From: a virus
Reading direction: 5' to 3' (one strand)
IMG/VR virus record: IMGVR_UViG_3300031951_000022
Location: 62,001-126,000 of that record
Length of the DNA stretch: 64,000 nt
Both the position numbers and the translations under genes were made by a program. Each line of letters begins with the position of its first letter. Position 1 is the stretch's first letter. The notes under the pieces are model-generated. The model did no database searches. It saw only the letters and a list, made by a program, of their open reading frames with translations, and was not told the DNA's origin. This document shows positions 4,690 to 22,961 of the stretch, one piece after another.

Positions 4690-5922
4690 TTATCGTCTAA
4701 TATAACCAGAATAGGCAATAGCTTCTTTTTGATTCACGGCGTCCAGAATCTTCACCACTACCAGATTCCATTTTTTACTAAAATATTTTTTAGATAGATT
4801 CAAGGTAAACTGTGATCCGTTGCCACTATTTGCTACTACCACATATCTTGTAGTGTTGTTGATACTAACCTGTACTTTAAGCTTGTTACTCATATTCGAT
4901 GAATCATAAGCCCACCCACTAATAATACTTTTAGATACTTTATACAGCCCATAAACGATCTTAGGCTGTACTACAATTTGCACCGGAGGTTGATAACTTT
5001 CTCCCAATGGAACCATGTTTTTTAATAAAGTAATTGCCCCACCCACATTCAAAAAACCATAACCCACCTTATCTGCTAAATTTTCCACATATGATGCTGC
5101 TGATAATATTGCGCTTTTAATCTGAGAGGCCACATAATTAATATTAATACTTTTCAACAAAGCTACCGCCCCACTAACAAAAGGAGCCGCCATGCTAGTG
5201 CCACTAACATATCCATAACTATTATTTGGTAATGTAGAATAGATACCCGTTCCTGGAGCAGCAATATCTACACTATTTTTTCCATAGTTAGAATAATTAG
5301 CCAAAGTTAAATCCCTATTAGTAGCGGCCACACTAATAGTATTAGATAATTTATAAGAGCTAGGATATCTTGGAACCAAATCATTATTTGAAGAGTTATT
5401 ACCAGCAGCGGTCACAACCACTATACCCAGATCATTAGCTCTTTTTATAGCACTTTCTAAAATTAAAGAAGATGATGTTCCTCCACCCCAGCTTAAATTA
5501 ATAGAAGCTATATTAATGCCTTTTAATTTCATATTAGTAGCATAATTAATAGCAGAAGCGGCAGCGCCCGTATATCCTAGTCCGCTACTATTTTGAAACT
5601 TTAGAGGCATAATACTAATATCATTAGATACGCCGGTTACTATACCAGCCACATGAGTACCATGATAAAAATCATCTTGAGGAATATTATTATTGCTTAC
5701 AAAATTCCACCCACTAATATCATCAATATAGCCATTGTTATCATTGTCTATATTATCCCCCGCTATTTCTTTAGTATTAATAAAAATATTGTCTTTAAGA
5801 TCAATATGATAAAGATCAATACCAGAATCAACAATGGCCACTATGGGCTGAGAAGACGAGGTCGAACTTAATACTTTTTTATTTTCTAGTTGTTCTATGC
5901 CCAGAGCGCAGTCCTTGCTCAT
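4690..5922 (-). CDS. Subtilisin-like serine protease (S8) with planctomycete-type N-terminus
   Basis: A 410-residue subtilase. The catalytic triad is visible as Asp32 (VAIVDSGID), His87 (HGTHVAG) and Ser243 (SGTSMAAPFVSG), with oxyanion Asn175 (AAGNN). Residues 300-410 form a separate beta-rich tail. There is no classical signal peptide. Instead residues 8-20 (GIEQLENKKVLSS) resemble the LEPRxLL-type motif near the start of planctomycete extracellular proteins (Planc_extracel-like, from memory), so export by a planctomycete host system is a reasonable inference. The gene has its own promoter (5951-5978) and stands among tiny early genes, unlike virion proteases. It may act on host surface proteins or mediate exclusion; the substrate is unknown. 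The planctomycete resemblance is the best host clue in the window. Confidence 0.9.
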   Translation of the reverse strand: MSKDCALGIEQLENKKVLSSTSSSQPIVAIVDSGIDLYHIDLKDNIFINTKEIAGDNIDNDNNGYIDDISGWNFVSNNNIPQDDFYHGTHVAGIVTGVSNDISIMPLKFQNSSGLGYTGAAASAINYATNMKLKGINIASINLSWGGGTSSSLILESAIKRANDLGIVVVTAAGNNSSNNDLVPRYPSSYKLSNTISVAATNRDLTLANYSNYGKNSVDIAAPGTGIYSTLPNNSYGYVSGTSMAAPFVSGAVALLKSININYVASQIKSAILSAASYVENLADKVGYGFLNVGGAITLLKNMVPLGESYQPPVQIVVQPKIVYGLYKVSKSIISGWAYDSSNMSNKLKVQVSINNTTRYVVVANSGNGSQFTLNLSKKYFSKKWNLVVVKILDAVNQKEAIAYSGYIRR

Positions 5923-5950
5923 TTCATAATCCTCCTTGAAAGATATGAGG

Positions 5951-5978
5951 ATTCTAACCCAGAAAAAGCAATAGTCAA
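5951..5978 (-). promoter_or_regulatory. sigma70-type promoter before the protease gene
   Basis: TTGACT, 16 bp, TAGAAT on the minus strand, directly after the T-tract of the terminator at 5980-6016. Confidence 0.75.
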
Positions 5979-5979
5979 G

Positions 5980-6016
5980 AAAAAAAATGAGGGATCCCGA
6001 TTTGGCCGAGATCCCC
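5980..6016 (-). terminator. Rho-independent terminator after the 6029 gene
   Basis: On the minus strand a stem GGGATCTCG/CGGGATCCC (nine pairs including one G-U) with a 7-base loop is followed by eight T. It stops the transcript of the small DNA-binding protein just before the protease promoter begins. Confidence 0.85.
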
Positions 6017-6028
6017 CATTAATTTCAT

Positions 6029-6320: not shown

Positions 6321-6470
6321 ATGAATATTGACCCCATTATCCCCTCTATTCTCCACATAACTGCTAAAGAAAATGTGGATATAAATGCTGATTTAACAGC
6401 AGAACAGATCAAATCCATAGGCCAACTACTAGAAGAAGCTCATGAAGAAGAAAAAGATTCACAAAGTTAA
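6321..6470 (+). CDS. Small acidic protein, first gene of the late operon
   Basis: A 49-residue protein starting MNIDPIIPSILHITAKENVD and ending in an acidic tail (EEAHEEEKDSQS). AGAGGTAAAA precedes the ATG. It overlaps the next gene by 29 bases. Function unknown; its position directly behind the rightward promoter makes it the first product of the structural operon. Confidence 0.65.
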   Translation: MNIDPIIPSILHITAKENVDINADLTAEQIKSIGQLLEEAHEEEKDSQS

Positions 6471-7062
6471 CGAAGACGAATTTCTTAAGATAATTGATAT
6501 TATCGCCAAAAAATTAGCCTATAAATTCAAGTTTGGATATCATGATTTTGATGATATGAAGCAACAGATAAGCATCTTTGCGCTAGAAGGTCTTAAAAAT
6601 TATGATCATAAAAGACCACTAGAAAACTTCCTTTGGACCCACGTAAGAAATCGCCTCTTCAACTATAAAAGAGATAATTACCAAAGGCCCGACAAACCAT
6701 GTTTAAGCTGCCCCCTTTACGACCCTCACTGTAAAAATAGTAGTAGTGGATGTGTTGAATATAATAATAAAAATGACTGTAGTTTGTATTCATCGTGGTT
6801 ATCAAGAAATAGTACCAAAAAGAACCTTATGCACCTTACAACAATAGACGAAGTTAAAAACTACGGGAATGCTTTTAGTAGTGATGATAATTTATTGTTT
6901 GATAATATTTCAAATAACGAAATTTTATCCTTAGTAGAACAACATCTTATGGGCGAAGAAAGATCCACTTATATTAAGGTAAAGGGTGGCGCCAAGGTTA
7001 GTAAGGCAGACATGGACAAGCTAGTTGAAACCATAAGGGAGATAATAAGACTTCATGGCTAA
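6442..7062 (+). CDS. Phage sigma-factor-like protein with Cys cluster
   Basis: A 206-residue protein. Residues 33-80 (YHDFDDMKQQISIFALEG, then FLWTHVRNRLFNYKRDNYQRP) match the helical core of sigma70 region 2 as seen in phage late sigma factors: an acidic first helix, an aromatic-rich second part and a basic third part that would bind and melt the -10. Residues 87-113 carry five Cys (CLSCPLYDPHC, then two more), probably a zinc site that is not part of ordinary sigma factors. The C-terminus (KVSKADMDKLVETIREIIR) is short, so a full region 4 is absent. The gene overlaps both neighbours. It probably redirects host RNA polymerase to late or middle promoters; this is inference from the fold pattern. 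Confidence 0.6.
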   Translation: MKKKKIHKVNEDEFLKIIDIIAKKLAYKFKFGYHDFDDMKQQISIFALEGLKNYDHKRPLENFLWTHVRNRLFNYKRDNYQRPDKPCLSCPLYDPHCKNSSSGCVEYNNKNDCSLYSSWLSRNSTKKNLMHLTTIDEVKNYGNAFSSDDNLLFDNISNNEILSLVEQHLMGEERSTYIKVKGGAKVSKADMDKLVETIREIIRLHG

Positions 7063-7876
7063 AAAACGTGGACAACTTAGTTTAGACGAAGAAAAATTTA
7101 TCAGAGAAAATATAGAAAGTTTAAGCGTAGAAGAAATTGCTGATGCTCTTAATCGTAATGTTGATCCAGTTAATAGATACATTGATGAAAATCAATTATA
7201 TGATATTAATGACAAGAGCGAGAACGAGATTCTCAGGCGCAAGCTACGCAGCAAAACCTTTTGGAATGAGATACTACGTCAGTTTGACGAAAATACTGGC
7301 GAATTACAATACTTTGAAGATACGTGGATTGGCCTAATTAAACAGTTCAGAGAGGACGTTTTACCCGCCGAAGAACTTCAAATCAAACAGTTTATCACCA
7401 TAGATATTCTTATTAACAGAAGCATGAAAGAACGTAAGCGTCACATTTCCGAGACAGAAAAATTACAAAAATTAGTTGATAAAGAATACGAAAAACTTGA
7501 AGACCAAAGAGACATTCCCAAACTAGCTAATTTAGAAGCTCAATTAAGTTTCGCCCGCAACAGTATAGCAAGTTATACAAATGAATATACTAAGCTTTTA
7601 AACGAGCAACAAAAAATTAGCAAAGATCTTAAGGCTACTCGTGAACAGCGTATTAAAAGAATTGAAGATGGTAAAAGTTCTTGGGTTGGATTGATAAGAA
7701 TGTTGGAGGATGAAGCTATTAGAGAAAAAGAAGGACGAGAAATGGAAATTTTGGCTATGGCTACACAAAAGGCTAAAAATGAACTATATGACTATCACGA
7801 ATATGCAGATCGTAGAGTTGATTCACCAATTTTAAGTCCAGACTCTATAGGTTATAATAATGAGAAACTATCGTGA
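7055..7876 (+). CDS. HTH and coiled-coil protein, candidate small terminase subunit
   Basis: A 273-residue protein. Residues 9-48 (LDEEKFIRENIESLSVEEIA, then ALNRNVDPVNRYI) form a helix-turn-helix like those that open small terminase proteins. Residues about 115-225 are a long charged coiled coil. The gene lies two genes before an ERCC4 nuclease and close to the large terminase, where small terminases usually sit, and it overlaps the sigma-like gene before and the HNH gene after it. Small terminases bind the packaging site and form rings. The length is on the long side for the family. A regulatory DNA-binding protein is the alternative. Confidence 0.5.
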   Translation: MAKKRGQLSLDEEKFIRENIESLSVEEIADALNRNVDPVNRYIDENQLYDINDKSENEILRRKLRSKTFWNEILRQFDENTGELQYFEDTWIGLIKQFREDVLPAEELQIKQFITIDILINRSMKERKRHISETEKLQKLVDKEYEKLEDQRDIPKLANLEAQLSFARNSIASYTNEYTKLLNEQQKISKDLKATREQRIKRIEDGKSSWVGLIRMLEDEAIREKEGREMEILAMATQKAKNELYDYHEYADRRVDSPILSPDSIGYNNEKLS

Positions 7877-8126
7877 TCCTCAATATATTCAGTGGAGAAA
7901 AGATGTTAGAAAAAGAGACCACAATTGTTGTCAATGGCCCGGTTGTAATAAAAAAACCAAGCTACAGGCTCATCATATTCAAAAGTGGTCAGATTTTCCA
8001 GGACTAAGATATCATATAGATAATGGCATTACACTATGTAAAGATCATCACAACATGATAAAGGATAACGAAGAAAACTATAGCGGATTCTTTTTTAAAT
8101 TAATTCTAAATAAAAGAGGAAAATAA
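7860..8126 (+). CDS. HNH endonuclease
   Basis: An 88-residue HNH nuclease. Residues 24-29 (CQWPGC) and 60-64 (CKDHH) supply the zinc ligands, and AHHI at 37-40 with Asn55 forms the beta-beta-alpha-metal site. Stand-alone HNH proteins next to terminase genes are common in tailed phages, where they help the terminase cut DNA for packaging. The gene overlaps the previous one by 17 bases and lies before TerL, which supports that role. A free-standing homing nuclease is the alternative. Confidence 0.85.
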   Translation: MRNYRDPQYIQWRKDVRKRDHNCCQWPGCNKKTKLQAHHIQKWSDFPGLRYHIDNGITLCKDHHNMIKDNEENYSGFFFKLILNKRGK

Positions 8127-8127
8127 A

Positions 8128-8712
8128 ATGCAACTAGATAAACCAGTAACAATTATCCCACCATCATATATTTTAAACAATCAAGTAATACATCCTAATC
8201 CTTTTGTTTTAAAAGAACTAGATATCACTTATACAGACAATCCTAAAGACAAAAGAATCTATCTCACCATCAAGCCATTTCCTATTGGTGTACAACTATG
8301 GGGTCCAGAATCTTACGACGCAGTTGGAGACTGGACTCAAAAGCAAGCAGAAGACAGATTAAAAGCTTTAATTAATAATGAGATACATAAGTTTTTAGGA
8401 TTATTGTTTAAGCAAACCGGAGATACTGACCCCGATGGTCCAGGCAGCATTTTAGCAGGAATGTTTAGTGGACTAGGAATCAAAACGTCTCCAACTTGCT
8501 CTTGTAAAAAACACATGAGAGAAATGAACCTTAGAGGTAATGATTGGTGTGAAAATAATATGGATACTATTATGAGTTGGCTTAGAGCAGAGTCTGAAAA
8601 GCGTAAATTGCCATTTGTAGAAATTGTAGCAAAAACTATTGTGCGTAGTTCTATTAAAAAATCCCGTAGACTTTTAGAAAAAAGAATACTAGCTAATGCC
8701 CAAACAAGATAA
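8128..8712 (+). CDS. Protein with a TCSC/WCENN cysteine domain
   Basis: A 194-residue protein with two parts. Residues 1-90 are unrecognised. Residues 110-180 contain TSPTCSCKKH, then DWCENN, then WLRAESEKRKLPF. The same domain occurs at the end of the protein at 50801-51241, so the phage carries two copies in different contexts. Cys124, Cys126 and Cys141 may bind metal. I recall this pattern from proteins of planctomycetes and their phages without a known function. AGGAAAATAAA precedes the ATG. Its place between HNH and ERCC4 nucleases points to packaging or DNA processing here. Confidence 0.6.
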   Translation: MQLDKPVTIIPPSYILNNQVIHPNPFVLKELDITYTDNPKDKRIYLTIKPFPIGVQLWGPESYDAVGDWTQKQAEDRLKALINNEIHKFLGLLFKQTGDTDPDGPGSILAGMFSGLGIKTSPTCSCKKHMREMNLRGNDWCENNMDTIMSWLRAESEKRKLPFVEIVAKTIVRSSIKKSRRLLEKRILANAQTR

Positions 8713-9184
8713 CTTCACAATCATAGTTGACACAAGAGAACAACTTCCTTGGGAATTTGGTTTTCATGTAACCAGCAAAAAGAAGCTGGATACTGGAGAT
8801 TATAGTATGGAAGGATTCGAAAGTCTTTTTACAATAGAGCGTAAGCGCAGCGTTAGTGAGATAGCAAATAATATTACAGAAAGTCGATTCAAAGATGTTC
8901 TGGATCGTATGAGCAAAATCCCTCACAGTTTTATGTTGATGGAATTTGGTATAGATGAAATTTATAATTTCCCGGTCGGCAGCGACATCCCCAAGAAAAT
9001 GTGGGATAAGCTAAGAATTAGTGGTAATTATATTATGAAATATTTAGTAGAGGCCCAACTTAATCATAATATTCACATACTTTTTTGCGGAGATGCAGAA
9101 ACAGCAGAGCGTACAGCAGTAGGTATTATGAAAAGAATTTACGAGAAATATGGAAAACAAACAGAAAACAATAACAACGTTTGA
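8696..9184 (+). CDS. ERCC4-type nuclease
   Basis: A 162-residue protein with the core of the ERCC4/XPF nuclease fold: VDTREQLPW at residues 11-19, GDYS at 34-37 and IERKR at 47-51 give the acidic GDXn-ERK-type active site. Family members cut branched or single-strand/double-strand junctions. The gene overlaps both neighbours (17 bases upstream, 35 into TerL), so it is part of the packaging cluster. It could resolve branched replication intermediates before packaging. There is no C-terminal HhH domain, as is usual for phage versions. Confidence 0.85.
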   Translation: MPKQDNFTIIVDTREQLPWEFGFHVTSKKKLDTGDYSMEGFESLFTIERKRSVSEIANNITESRFKDVLDRMSKIPHSFMLMEFGIDEIYNFPVGSDIPKKMWDKLRISGNYIMKYLVEAQLNHNIHILFCGDAETAERTAVGIMKRIYEKYGKQTENNNNV

Positions 9185-11183
9185 TGATGCTTGGCTAGGT
9201 CTAGGTGATCTTAGTCAAATAGTTATCGACCACAACCCTATGATTGGTCGAAACAAGGAAGATATAGAAAATCCAGACCTACATCTATTGAGACTGTTGA
9301 GAGATCCCAAATACTTCGGATCTACTGCTAAACTATTATTCAATATAGAACTTCACCCTATACAGATAGCTATCTTGCAAGAATTTTGGCTAAGACCATT
9401 TCCTATGTTCATTGCATCTCGTGGTTTTGGTAAGTCGTTCTTAATGGCTATGTATTGTACATTAAAATGTATTTTGGTACCCGGAACAAAGATTGTTGTA
9501 GTAGGTGCTGCTTTTAGACAGAGCAAAATTATTTTCGAATATATGGAAACGCTATGGAGAAATAGCCCTATCCTAAGAAGTGTTTTTAATGGTAATGATG
9601 ATGGTCCACGACGTGACGTAGATAGATGTACTATGAGGCTTGGCGAAAGTTGGACAATCGCTGTTCCTATGGGCGATGGTAGTAAAATTAGAGGCTTAAG
9701 AGCGCATATTATTATTGCTGACGAATTTGCCTCTATTTCTCCTGATATTTATGAGACGGTAGTTTCAGGTTTCGCTGCCGTATCTGCTAGTCCAATACAA
9801 AATGTTAAAGAAGAAGCTAAAAAGAAAGCGATGACAGCAGTAGGATTATGGAATGATGAATTAGAAGCAGTGCAAATTAAAAAGGGTAACCAAGCTATCA
9901 TAGCCGGTACTGCTGACTATAGTTTTAAGCATTTTGCTACTTATTGGAAAAGATATCAAGCTATCATTAATAGTCAAGGAGATAAGCAAAAGCTGGAAGA
10001 AATTTTTAAGGGAGAAGTACCAGATAGTTTTAACTGGAAAGACTATAGTATAGTACGCATACCATATGAAATTATTCCTAAAGGCTTCATGGATGACAAA
10101 CAAGTTAGTCGTGCCAAAGCTACTATTCATACCGGCATATATAATATGGAATATGCGGCGTGTTTTACAGAAGACAGTGACGGTTTTTTCCGTCGATCAC
10201 TAATAGAAAGTTGTGTGGTACATGAAAGCAAACCAATTGTGGTTAATGGTACTCCTGTTTTGTTTGATGTTAGTACCAAAGGAAACCCAGACCTTCAATA
10301 CATTTATGGCATTGACCCAGCTTCTGAAAAGGACAATTTTAGTATCGTAATATTAGAGGTTCATAAAGATCATAGTCGGCTAGTATATTGTTGGACCACT
10401 AATCGTAATAATTTTAAAGATCGTCAAAAAACTGGATTAATTAACGAATATGATTTTTACGGTTTCTGCGCTCGTAAGATACGCAACCTAATGAAAGTAT
10501 TCCCTTGTGCTCGTATTGGATTAGATGCTCAGGGTGGTGGTGTGGCAATTGAAGAAGCATTACACGATCCAGGCAAACTAGAAGATGGTGAATCCTTAAT
10601 ATGGCCGGTTATAGACATTAATAAACCCAAAGAAACCGATGATCAGCAAGGATTACATATATTGGAATTAGTACAGTTTGCAAGGGCTGATTGGACGGCA
10701 CAAGCTAATCACGGATTAAGAAAAGACCTAGAAGATAAAGTATTACTTTTTCCAAGATTTGATCAAGTCAGTTTGGCTCTTGCTTTAGACAAAGAAGGTA
10801 AAGATATTATGTCTGCGGATCTTATGAATCTTTACGACAGTGAAAGCGAATGTATTTTAGAGATTGAAGAGCTAAAGAATGAATTGACCACTATTGTTAT
10901 GACACAAACTAGTACTGGACCTAACGCTAGAGATAGGTGGGATACCCCAGAAGTTAAGCTGCCTAATGGAAAAAAGGGAAAACTAAGAAAAGATAGATAT
11001 AGCGCATTAATAATCGCTAATATGTTAGCTAGACAATTAAGTAGAACTTTAGAGCCAACTACTTTTGAGGTTATTGGTAATAATCTAGATATAGTAGAAA
11101 AGAAAGAAGGCCAAATGTATAAGGGGCCAAACTGGTTTATTGATGGAGCAAATGCTAACATATATGGTGGAATTTATAGATAA
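9150..11183 (+). CDS. Terminase large subunit
   Basis: A 677-residue packaging motor. The ATPase part has a Walker A motif at residues 90-96 (SRGFGKS) and Walker B at 187-192 (IIIADE). The RNase H-like nuclease part has Asp389 (YGIDPASE), Asp459 (IGLDAQGG) and a late Asp in KLRKDRYSALI. The protein translocates DNA into the prohead through the portal and cuts the concatemer. It begins within the ERCC4 gene and is followed by the portal gene after 48 bases. Length is in the upper normal range for the family. Confidence 0.97.
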   Translation: MENKQKTITTFDDAWLGLGDLSQIVIDHNPMIGRNKEDIENPDLHLLRLLRDPKYFGSTAKLLFNIELHPIQIAILQEFWLRPFPMFIASRGFGKSFLMAMYCTLKCILVPGTKIVVVGAAFRQSKIIFEYMETLWRNSPILRSVFNGNDDGPRRDVDRCTMRLGESWTIAVPMGDGSKIRGLRAHIIIADEFASISPDIYETVVSGFAAVSASPIQNVKEEAKKKAMTAVGLWNDELEAVQIKKGNQAIIAGTADYSFKHFATYWKRYQAIINSQGDKQKLEEIFKGEVPDSFNWKDYSIVRIPYEIIPKGFMDDKQVSRAKATIHTGIYNMEYAACFTEDSDGFFRRSLIESCVVHESKPIVVNGTPVLFDVSTKGNPDLQYIYGIDPASEKDNFSIVILEVHKDHSRLVYCWTTNRNNFKDRQKTGLINEYDFYGFCARKIRNLMKVFPCARIGLDAQGGGVAIEEALHDPGKLEDGESLIWPVIDINKPKETDDQQGLHILELVQFARADWTAQANHGLRKDLEDKVLLFPRFDQVSLALALDKEGKDIMSADLMNLYDSESECILEIEELKNELTTIVMTQTSTGPNARDRWDTPEVKLPNGKKGKLRKDRYSALIIANMLARQLSRTLEPTTFEVIGNNLDIVEKKEGQMYKGPNWFIDGANANIYGGIYR

Positions 11184-20892: not shown

Positions 20893-21279
20893 ATGGCAAG
20901 TAATCCAGTTTTTGCAGTAACACCACGCATAGGGTTTGGTCAAGTTAGCACAGCGAACACGAACTATGACGGTGTGACCGGAACATATGTTGATATTATA
21001 ACGGGTGCTAGCACTGGCACAAGAATAGCGGAAATTGTCATACAGGCTACCGCAACAACAACAGCCGGTATGGTGCGTTTATTTATTACTGATGGCACAA
21101 CTACAAGAATGTTTGACGAAGTTTCCGTTGCCGCCGCCACGGTGAGTGCATCAGTAAAAGGAGCGAGACTAAGTACAACCTACAACAATCTTATTCTTCC
21201 AAATCAAAATTGGAGAATACGAGCTAGTACCCATAACGCCGTTGCTATAAACGTATTTGCTTTGGGGGCAGATTTGTGA
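20893..21279 (+). CDS. Small virion surface protein
   Basis: A 128-residue Thr/Ala/Val-rich protein that looks like an all-beta sandwich. It lies among fibre genes, and AAAGGAACTTTCT precedes the ATG. Its stop overlaps the next start (GTGA). It probably decorates the fibre or baseplate; no named family. Confidence 0.6.
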   Translation: MASNPVFAVTPRIGFGQVSTANTNYDGVTGTYVDIITGASTGTRIAEIVIQATATTTAGMVRLFITDGTTTRMFDEVSVAAATVSASVKGARLSTTYNNLILPNQNWRIRASTHNAVAINVFALGADL

Positions 21280-22961
21280 ATAATGGTATTTTTGTACAAG
21301 ATTCATATGATGGTAAAGTCTCTTTTGATTCTCAATCAATAAAGGGGTTGTTAGGTAATCCAACTCTTGTTCCGTTGCCGTATAGTTGCTCTTTTAATCG
21401 TTGGGATCCAAATAAGCTAGTCTATGTTATAGACACAAGACTGCAAAGTTCTACAACTATAACATTTAGTACTAGTAGTTTAATATATACTATTGATTGG
21501 GGTGATGGATATATAGAAAGTATTCGTGTAGCATCTCCATATTTTATTATACGGCACACTTATGCGACTCATGGCTCGTATATCATTCAAACAGATAACA
21601 TAAATAATCCAGTTATAGGTGAAGCCTCTTTAATAGGAATATTATCTTTTGGAACATTTCCTTCTAATGTAAACCTCATATATAATGGAGGAGGTGCTGG
21701 ATCTTTTGCTAACTCTTCAAATTTATTGTTTGTTCCATCTAATCTTCCGCTTCATAATTCGCTTGATTTAGGTACAGCATTAAATAACGCTTTTAAACTC
21801 AATGATCAAAATATTTCTTTGTGGGACACTAGCAAAGTCACCACAATGAGATTTTTATTTCAAAATAATAGATTTTTAAATCAGCCTCTAAATTCTTGGA
21901 ATACATCTAATGTAACATCTATGCAAGGAATGTTTGGCGGAGCTTTATCGTTTAATCAAGATTTGAGCAATTGGAATGTTCGCAAGGTAACGCTTTTTGA
22001 TAGTATGTTTGTGGGAGCAACTAATTTTAATGGTAGCCTTAGCGGGTGGGCGTTGGGTGCAGATACCGCTGGAGCAAGTTGCTCATCGATGTTCTCAAGC
22101 TGTATAAATTTTAATCAAGATTTAAATTCTTGGAATGTTAGTAAAGTTACTAATTTTAATGGTATGTTTAATGGCGCTAGTTCTTTTAATCAAAACCTTA
22201 ACTCTTGGAACACTATTTCTGCAACTACTATGGATAGTATGTTTGTTAACGCTGTTGCTTTTAATGGAGATGTTGGAAATTTTAATACTTCTAATGTTAC
22301 TAGTTTTGGCAATATGTTCAATACTGCTACCTCTTTCAATAAACCAATTAGTAATTGGAATGTTGGCAATGTTACCATTACAGCAAATATGTTTTTGAAT
22401 GCTACTAACTTTAATCAGTCGCTAGACAACTGGAATGTAAGGAAATGTACTAATATGTCTAGCATGTTTAATAATGCTCGTAATTTTAATAGTAGTTTAA
22501 ATAACTGGTCTCCCGGACTTGACTCAACAGGAGTTAATTGTAATGGCATGTTTAGATCTGCTAGATCATTTAATCAAAATCTTACTAGTTGGAATATGAG
22601 TAAAGTAAACAATATATCTGAAATGTTTTTATGCGATGGAATACCCGGAGGAAATGTGCCTAGTGCATTTCAAGGAGATATTAGTAATTGGAATTTGGCT
22701 GGATTAAATGCTAGTACATCATTAGATAATTTTATGAACGGAAAAAACTTAACAGACAGGTATTCAACAGCAAACTATGACGCTTTGCTTATCGGTTGGA
22801 ACAACAATAAATTGATTGGAGCTAATGGTGTAGCTAATTGGCGTACAGATTTGCGCCCCAATTTTGGTGGGGCAAGATATACAGCGGGCGGTGCAGCGGC
22901 AACGGCTAGAGCAGCCCTAGTAAGTTACGGATGGACAATAACAGATGGAGGAGTAGCATGA
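21276..22961 (+). CDS. Surface protein with PKD-like domain and BspA/DUF285 repeats
   Basis: A 561-residue protein. Residues about 65-110 (YTIDWGDGYIES, then RHTYATHGSYII) are a PKD-type beta domain. Residues about 180-490 are repeats of the form MFxxAxxFNQxLxxWNVSKVTxxxxMF, the BspA-like DUF285 repeat known from Mycoplasma surface proteins and other bacteria (also called PARCEL because the coding repeats are palindromic and mobile). Each repeat is about 24-26 residues. Such proteins bind surfaces. The start is GTG, overlapping the previous stop. It is likely a variable receptor-binding protein. Confidence 0.85.
   Translation: MNNGIFVQDSYDGKVSFDSQSIKGLLGNPTLVPLPYSCSFNRWDPNKLVYVIDTRLQSSTTITFSTSSLIYTIDWGDGYIESIRVASPYFIIRHTYATHGSYIIQTDNINNPVIGEASLIGILSFGTFPSNVNLIYNGGGAGSFANSSNLLFVPSNLPLHNSLDLGTALNNAFKLNDQNISLWDTSKVTTMRFLFQNNRFLNQPLNSWNTSNVTSMQGMFGGALSFNQDLSNWNVRKVTLFDSMFVGATNFNGSLSGWALGADTAGASCSSMFSSCINFNQDLNSWNVSKVTNFNGMFNGASSFNQNLNSWNTISATTMDSMFVNAVAFNGDVGNFNTSNVTSFGNMFNTATSFNKPISNWNVGNVTITANMFLNATNFNQSLDNWNVRKCTNMSSMFNNARNFNSSLNNWSPGLDSTGVNCNGMFRSARSFNQNLTSWNMSKVNNISEMFLCDGIPGGNVPSAFQGDISNWNLAGLNASTSLDNFMNGKNLTDRYSTANYDALLIGWNNNKLIGANGVANWRTDLRPNFGGARYTAGGAAATARAALVSYGWTITDGGVA

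Follow-up and report, generated by a model that had tools for sequence, protein, structure and literature searches.

Many planctomycete proteins bear a short N-terminal motif, which Pfam describes as Planc_extracel (PF07595). These proteins have an Arg/Lys-rich start followed by [IVLF]-E-x-L-E-x-R-x-L-L-A, and the tag is found also on giant proteins that are not proteases. Neither a paper testing the function of the motif nor an experiment demonstrating export directed by it was found in the literature searched, and we know of no such experiment. Searches for literature on planctomycete phages returned nothing useful. Among secreted subtilases, deseasin MCP-01 is made with a signal peptide and a prodomain. 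Planc_extracel is placed among the signal-peptide families in PMC10952558.

The subject of this report is a subtilase gene of a freshwater-type phage, in a window of 64,000 nucleotides, the whole stretch of DNA analysed, corresponding to bases 62001-126000 of a virus record of 157,712 bases. On balance, it is probable that a planctomycete phage lineage took over the signal-peptide-independent export tag of its host for a secreted protease. The tag would be an autonomous module of ~18 residues, able to function when joined almost directly to the catalytic core.

Gene and Domain Organization

The gene and its surroundings contain the following features, in window coordinates:
4690..5922, minus strand: subtilase (S8) gene with an ATG start, 410 aa, matching Peptidase_S8 (1.4e-45) and the protease family phrog_3677 (4.1e-54)
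5931..5937, minus strand: Shine-Dalgarno sequence AAGGAGG, shortly 5′ of the ATG
5951..5978, minus strand: sigma70-type promoter-like site, TTGACT-16-TAGAAT, identified by consensus match only
5986..6020, minus strand: terminator-like hairpin upstream of the subtilase, setting the gene apart from its upstream neighbor
5863..5904, minus strand: N-terminal LGIEQLENKKVLSS motif, residues 7-20, of the planctomycete export-tag type by sequence conservation and profile ranking
5056..5847, minus strand: catalytic domain, about residues 26-289, with no prodomain or signal peptide preceding it
5829-5827, 5664-5662, 5400-5398, and 5196-5194, minus strand: catalytic residues D32, H87, N175, and S243, respectively
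4690..4968, minus strand: C-terminal beta-sandwich, Ig/fibronectin-III-like, about residues 319-410, preceded by a flexible linker
6442..11183, plus strand: packaging module (sigma-like protein, p273, HNH, nuclease, TerL), divergent from the subtilase

The protein begins with MSKDCALGIEQLENKKVLSS, exactly as the sequence-only reading of this DNA had described, and a search of the near-identical L002 copy for an alternative start codon upstream in the same frame found none. Judged by its sequence, the enzyme is a subtilase. Pfam assigns residues 24-289 to PF00082 (Peptidase_S8) with a score of 156 bits, against a cut-off of 21.8 (E=1.4e-45), and there is no other confident Pfam match in the window protein. 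The S8 hallmarks are an Asp/His/Ser triad in DSG, HGTH, and GTSMAAP contexts and an oxyanion Asn. The complete triad noticed earlier is confirmed, as D32, H87, and S243 are present in the window protein and, together with N175, are invariant in the alignment of all 22 phage relatives.

In the AlphaFold model, residues 1-21 form a disordered tail ahead of the catalytic domain, which is subtilisin-like and is joined by a flexible linker to a beta domain at the C-terminus. The N-terminal motif is predicted to be disordered, with a pLDDT <50. The model matches subtilisins and deseasin MCP-01 (3vv3), the latter being the nearest solved structure both by profile (6e-89) and by fold (40% identity, E=5.1e-29). 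Modelled alone, the C-terminal domain is a beta-sandwich (pLDDT 91.9) with only weak Ig/fibronectin-like matches in the PDB (E at least 2.6e-3), and searching 149 genomes for this domain gave just two weak matches.

The N-terminal Tag in Phage Relatives

Scans of viral contigs yielded about 35 loci with related enzymes, which were reduced to 22 aligned rows. These relatives share the pattern K-rich-L-x-[IVLF]-E-x-L-E-x-[RK]-x-x-L-[ST], after which the catalytic core follows directly or nearly so. Examples of such starts are MKKTTLGIENLENRSLLTP, MQKRSLLFESLESRRVLSN, MGKKAISLTVESLENRKLLSV, and MKKKNGFLNVERLESRHVLS, with a degenerate form, MLHFEQLNSRQMLSL, in relative L120. Across the 22 relatives, conservation is 90-100% at the L, E, L, E, and last L of the tag. 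Most of these enzymes differ from the window enzyme at more than half of their residues; the motif positions are still conserved at about 41% protein identity to the window protein. In five close pairs, the consensus positions show synonymous changes while the x positions change freely. No hydrophobic stretch was found at the N-termini of the phage subtilases. The same search also recovered other viral subtilases (L123-L137), and these lack the motif.

A pro-segment that inhibits the enzyme, of the kind known from intracellular subtilisins, would likewise be a short conserved extension immediately ahead of the core in a protein lacking a signal peptide, and intracellular serine proteases do appear among the PDB matches of the subtilase profile. 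The enzyme would then remain in the cytoplasm and cleave proteins of the host or the phage. This is unlikely, since the extension matches the planctomycete tag that giant non-protease proteins also carry, and the modelled tail is disordered rather than packed on the enzyme, although disorder in a model is compatible with binding. Moreover, the tag is kept both in relatives that have a segment of ~30 residues ahead of the core and in those that lack it, and it remains N-terminal when that segment separates the two.

Relation to the Planctomycete Motif

The motif occupies the extreme N-terminus, the place of a signal peptide, as in Planc_extracel. A planctomycete-only profile was made from 43 starts of proteins in planctomycete genomes that match this family. 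When 1507 phage N-termini are ranked by the profile, 16 subtilase starts outrank every other protein. Planc_extracel is also the top Pfam match for 8 of 10 phage N-termini, the best reaching 1.1e-4 and 22.1 bits. This maximum lies below the curated cut-off of 25.5 bits for all orthologues, and the window protein itself has no Planc_extracel match in Pfam; therefore the phage protein is not formally a member of the family. An NCBIfam scan of the 22 relatives to E=10 gave no LEPR-XLL match, assuming that the LEPR-XLL model is in the library. By its sequence, the phage tag looks like the same kind of signal as Planc_extracel.

The shortness of the motif and the low score of the window copy (the L002 start, which is identical, obtains 5.7 bits with the planctomycete profile) would be compatible with a resemblance by chance or by convergence of low-complexity sequence. 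Such an origin is highly improbable, given that the motif is conserved in 22 divergent relatives. It was rejected on two grounds: in a six-frame reading of the whole of G000 and the related phage loci, the motif stands near a start codon on the subtilase gene only, and the subtilases form the top group among the 1507 N-termini.

Cellular homologues indicate where the tag belongs. The 78 that could be scored comprise 7 planctomycete subtilases and 71 others, and the tag is at the N-terminus of 6/7 and 0/71, respectively (Fisher p=2.7e-8). All five informative independent pairs of cellular homologues agree (sign test p=0.06). Most of the 71 non-planctomycete homologues have a hydrophobic, signal peptide-like stretch instead. 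On the subtilase tree the planctomycete enzymes are scattered (8 changes), so the tag tracks the cell in which it occurs rather than the descent of the enzyme. All 22 phage enzymes group in a single clade with full support, which does not branch from within the planctomycete subtilases, and a recent transfer of the enzyme from a planctomycete subtilase is unsupported by this tree. The only further carrier of the tag, on a contig binned with a gammaproteobacterium (L012, RGPR01000093.1), has the same tagged phage subtilase as L111/L112; it is probably a misbinned phage.

Probable Planctomycete Hosts

At E<=0.01, Planc_extracel is found in 36/59 genomes from the class to which strain TBK1r belongs and in 0/14 genomes of other phyla. 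At E<=0.001, it is found in 3/99 genomes of a wide, mixed draw from the phylum, and the tag is accordingly best regarded as characteristic of the TBK1r class and its near relatives. A terminase about 58-59% identical to that of the window occurs in one of 398 genomes of the TBK1r class. Related terminases are absent from 294 genomes drawn from the phylum and from 289 in another phylum draw. The former draw is very mixed, with only 3/59 genomes having many SBP_bac_10/DUF1559 proteins, so its null result says little and the class-level draw is used instead.

The TBK1r-class contig with the related terminase, 78.8 kb long (G631 C5), has a prophage-like stretch at 41000-78816 (L301, L302, L305). 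From 48.5 kb onward it encodes HTH, sigma-like, p273, nuclease, TerL, portal, p493, p158, and head proteins in the order of the window, with identities of 44% for the portal and 63% for the head protein. Its packaging module includes a GDP-mannose dehydratase. The tail genes run to the contig end, and only a terminal part of the prophage is on the contig; this piece lacks the tagged subtilase. The first 40 kb hold bacterial genes; one encodes a PVC-type heme-binding protein (TIGR02604), and another weakly matches a sigma factor of the Planctomycetaceae type. A chimeric assembly is the less likely explanation of this contig. The collinearity is independent of the motif and supports planctomycete hosts for the lineage.

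A planctomycete host for the phage lineage is thus well supported, with the host inference drawing in part on the same motif as the export reading. A search of the window DNA against 392 genomes for a CRISPR-type host link gave only weak repeat-like matches. Elsewhere in the window, positions 21276-22961 encode a protein of 561 aa that contains four stretches of DUF285 repeats (E=2e-88), and a genome of the planctomycete draw (G046) has weak DNA similarity to this region.

The sequence-only reading had related the start of the protein to planctomycete export or anchoring. The relation to planctomycete motifs holds, as seen in the profile ranking, the Planc_extracel matches of orthologues, the tracking of the phylum by the motif, and the related prophage. 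The HMM comparison proposed with it came out negative for the window protein and gave sub-cut-off matches in orthologues. The overall interpretation is upheld in part.

Gene Neighborhood and Accessory Character

The subtilase borders the packaging module on the opposite strand. It occupies the same place in most relatives with a locus long enough to include this junction, and several relatives have similar promoter-like sites upstream of the gene. For the early expression proposed previously, the sigma70-like promoter match and the divergent gene position are the sole basis, and they suggest it tentatively. At the divergent junction, window positions 6442-7062 encode a protein resembling Sigma-70 region 2, just under cut-off and with a Cys-rich insert, that is kept in most relatives and could be the phage's own sigma factor. 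In several relatives, though not in the window phage, a GDP-mannose 4,6-dehydratase-like gene lies within the packaging module (L003:4619-5707, L004:4773-5762). The terminase at L004:990-4079 has an in-frame insertion that begins with Cys and ends with His-Asn ahead of a Ser; this insertion resembles an intein containing a homing endonuclease.

Hundreds of contigs carry a related terminase. Among 29 terminase-related loci with at least 6.5 kb upstream, the subtilase is beside TerL in 6; most phages of the same clade therefore do without the gene, and it is dispensable. No motif-bearing replacement protein was found in the TerL relatives without it. The subtilase also diverges much faster than TerL, with identities of 37-55% versus 52-86%. 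This fits a protein that contacts a variable target, and gene exchange could look alike.

Adjacency to the packaging module in most relatives would be expected of a protease that is packaged in the virion or that processes head or tail proteins during morphogenesis. Such a role is quite improbable, and slightly more so than that of an intracellular pro-segment. The gene is on the opposite strand, has promoter-like and terminator-like sites to itself, lies outside the head gene cluster, and is missing from most phages that share the terminase. Its divergence far exceeds that of TerL (e.g., L119: 45% vs 86% identity), and an export-type tag is unexpected on a virion protein.

Proposed Function

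The subtilase would be an accessory phage protease, transcribed separately, in which the N-terminal 18-20 residues act as a planctomycete-type export tag standing in for a signal peptide. The export reading draws on the position of the tag in the place of the signal peptide, the Pfam name, and the PMC10952558 listing. Since the tag replaces a signal peptide, the infected planctomycete probably exports the enzyme from the cytoplasm along the route that its own tagged proteins take. We infer that the enzyme then acts at or beyond the cell surface, where the C-terminal beta-sandwich may anchor it to the surface or to its substrate. Cleavage of host surface proteins could lead to progeny release, receptor change, or exclusion of other phages. 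A planctomycete-type tag, a planctomycete host, and export are, taken jointly, likely; the exact target of the protease can be named only tentatively.

The exported protein might serve, early in infection, to exclude superinfecting phages or to shave receptors rather than to bring about lysis. The sigma70-like promoter and stand-alone unit agree with early action, and genes engaged in surface conflict are expected to be accessory and to diverge fast, as this one does; a protease acting at lysis would look identical. That this is the purpose of the protein is possible, with the odds somewhat against it.

The phage gene is a compact construct supplied by nature, in which ~20 residues of tag precede a soluble enzyme of ~390 residues. 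It is suited to asking whether the tag is sufficient for export and by which machinery it is recognized. In addition, the gene family ties a widespread uncultured phage lineage to planctomycete hosts.

Comparison with Known Systems

The subtilases of Bacillus phages (e.g., SP-15) and PHROG 3677 resemble the window enzyme as S8 proteases of large tailed phages with ~35% core identity, in a match that spans only ~60% of the protein. Deseasin MCP-01, which provides the closest solved catalytic domain (PDB 3vv3), is a secreted subtilase and not a phage protein. With Planc_extracel (PF07595), the phage tags share the extreme N-terminal position, the Lys/Arg-rich start, the series [IVLF]-E-x-L-E-x-[RK]-x-x-L, and the lack of a hydrophobic signal. 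They differ in ending with S/T (A in one), in often having N after LE and K for R, and in having fewer basic residues and scores under the curated cut-off. The tagged planctomycete subtilases (L025, L040, L048, L054, L083, L090) likewise combine tag and S8 domain in one protein, but are much larger (frames of 663-2275 aa) and have long linkers. The phage enzymes, in contrast, are 390-535 aa long, with the core directly or almost directly after the tag, and make up a clade of their own.
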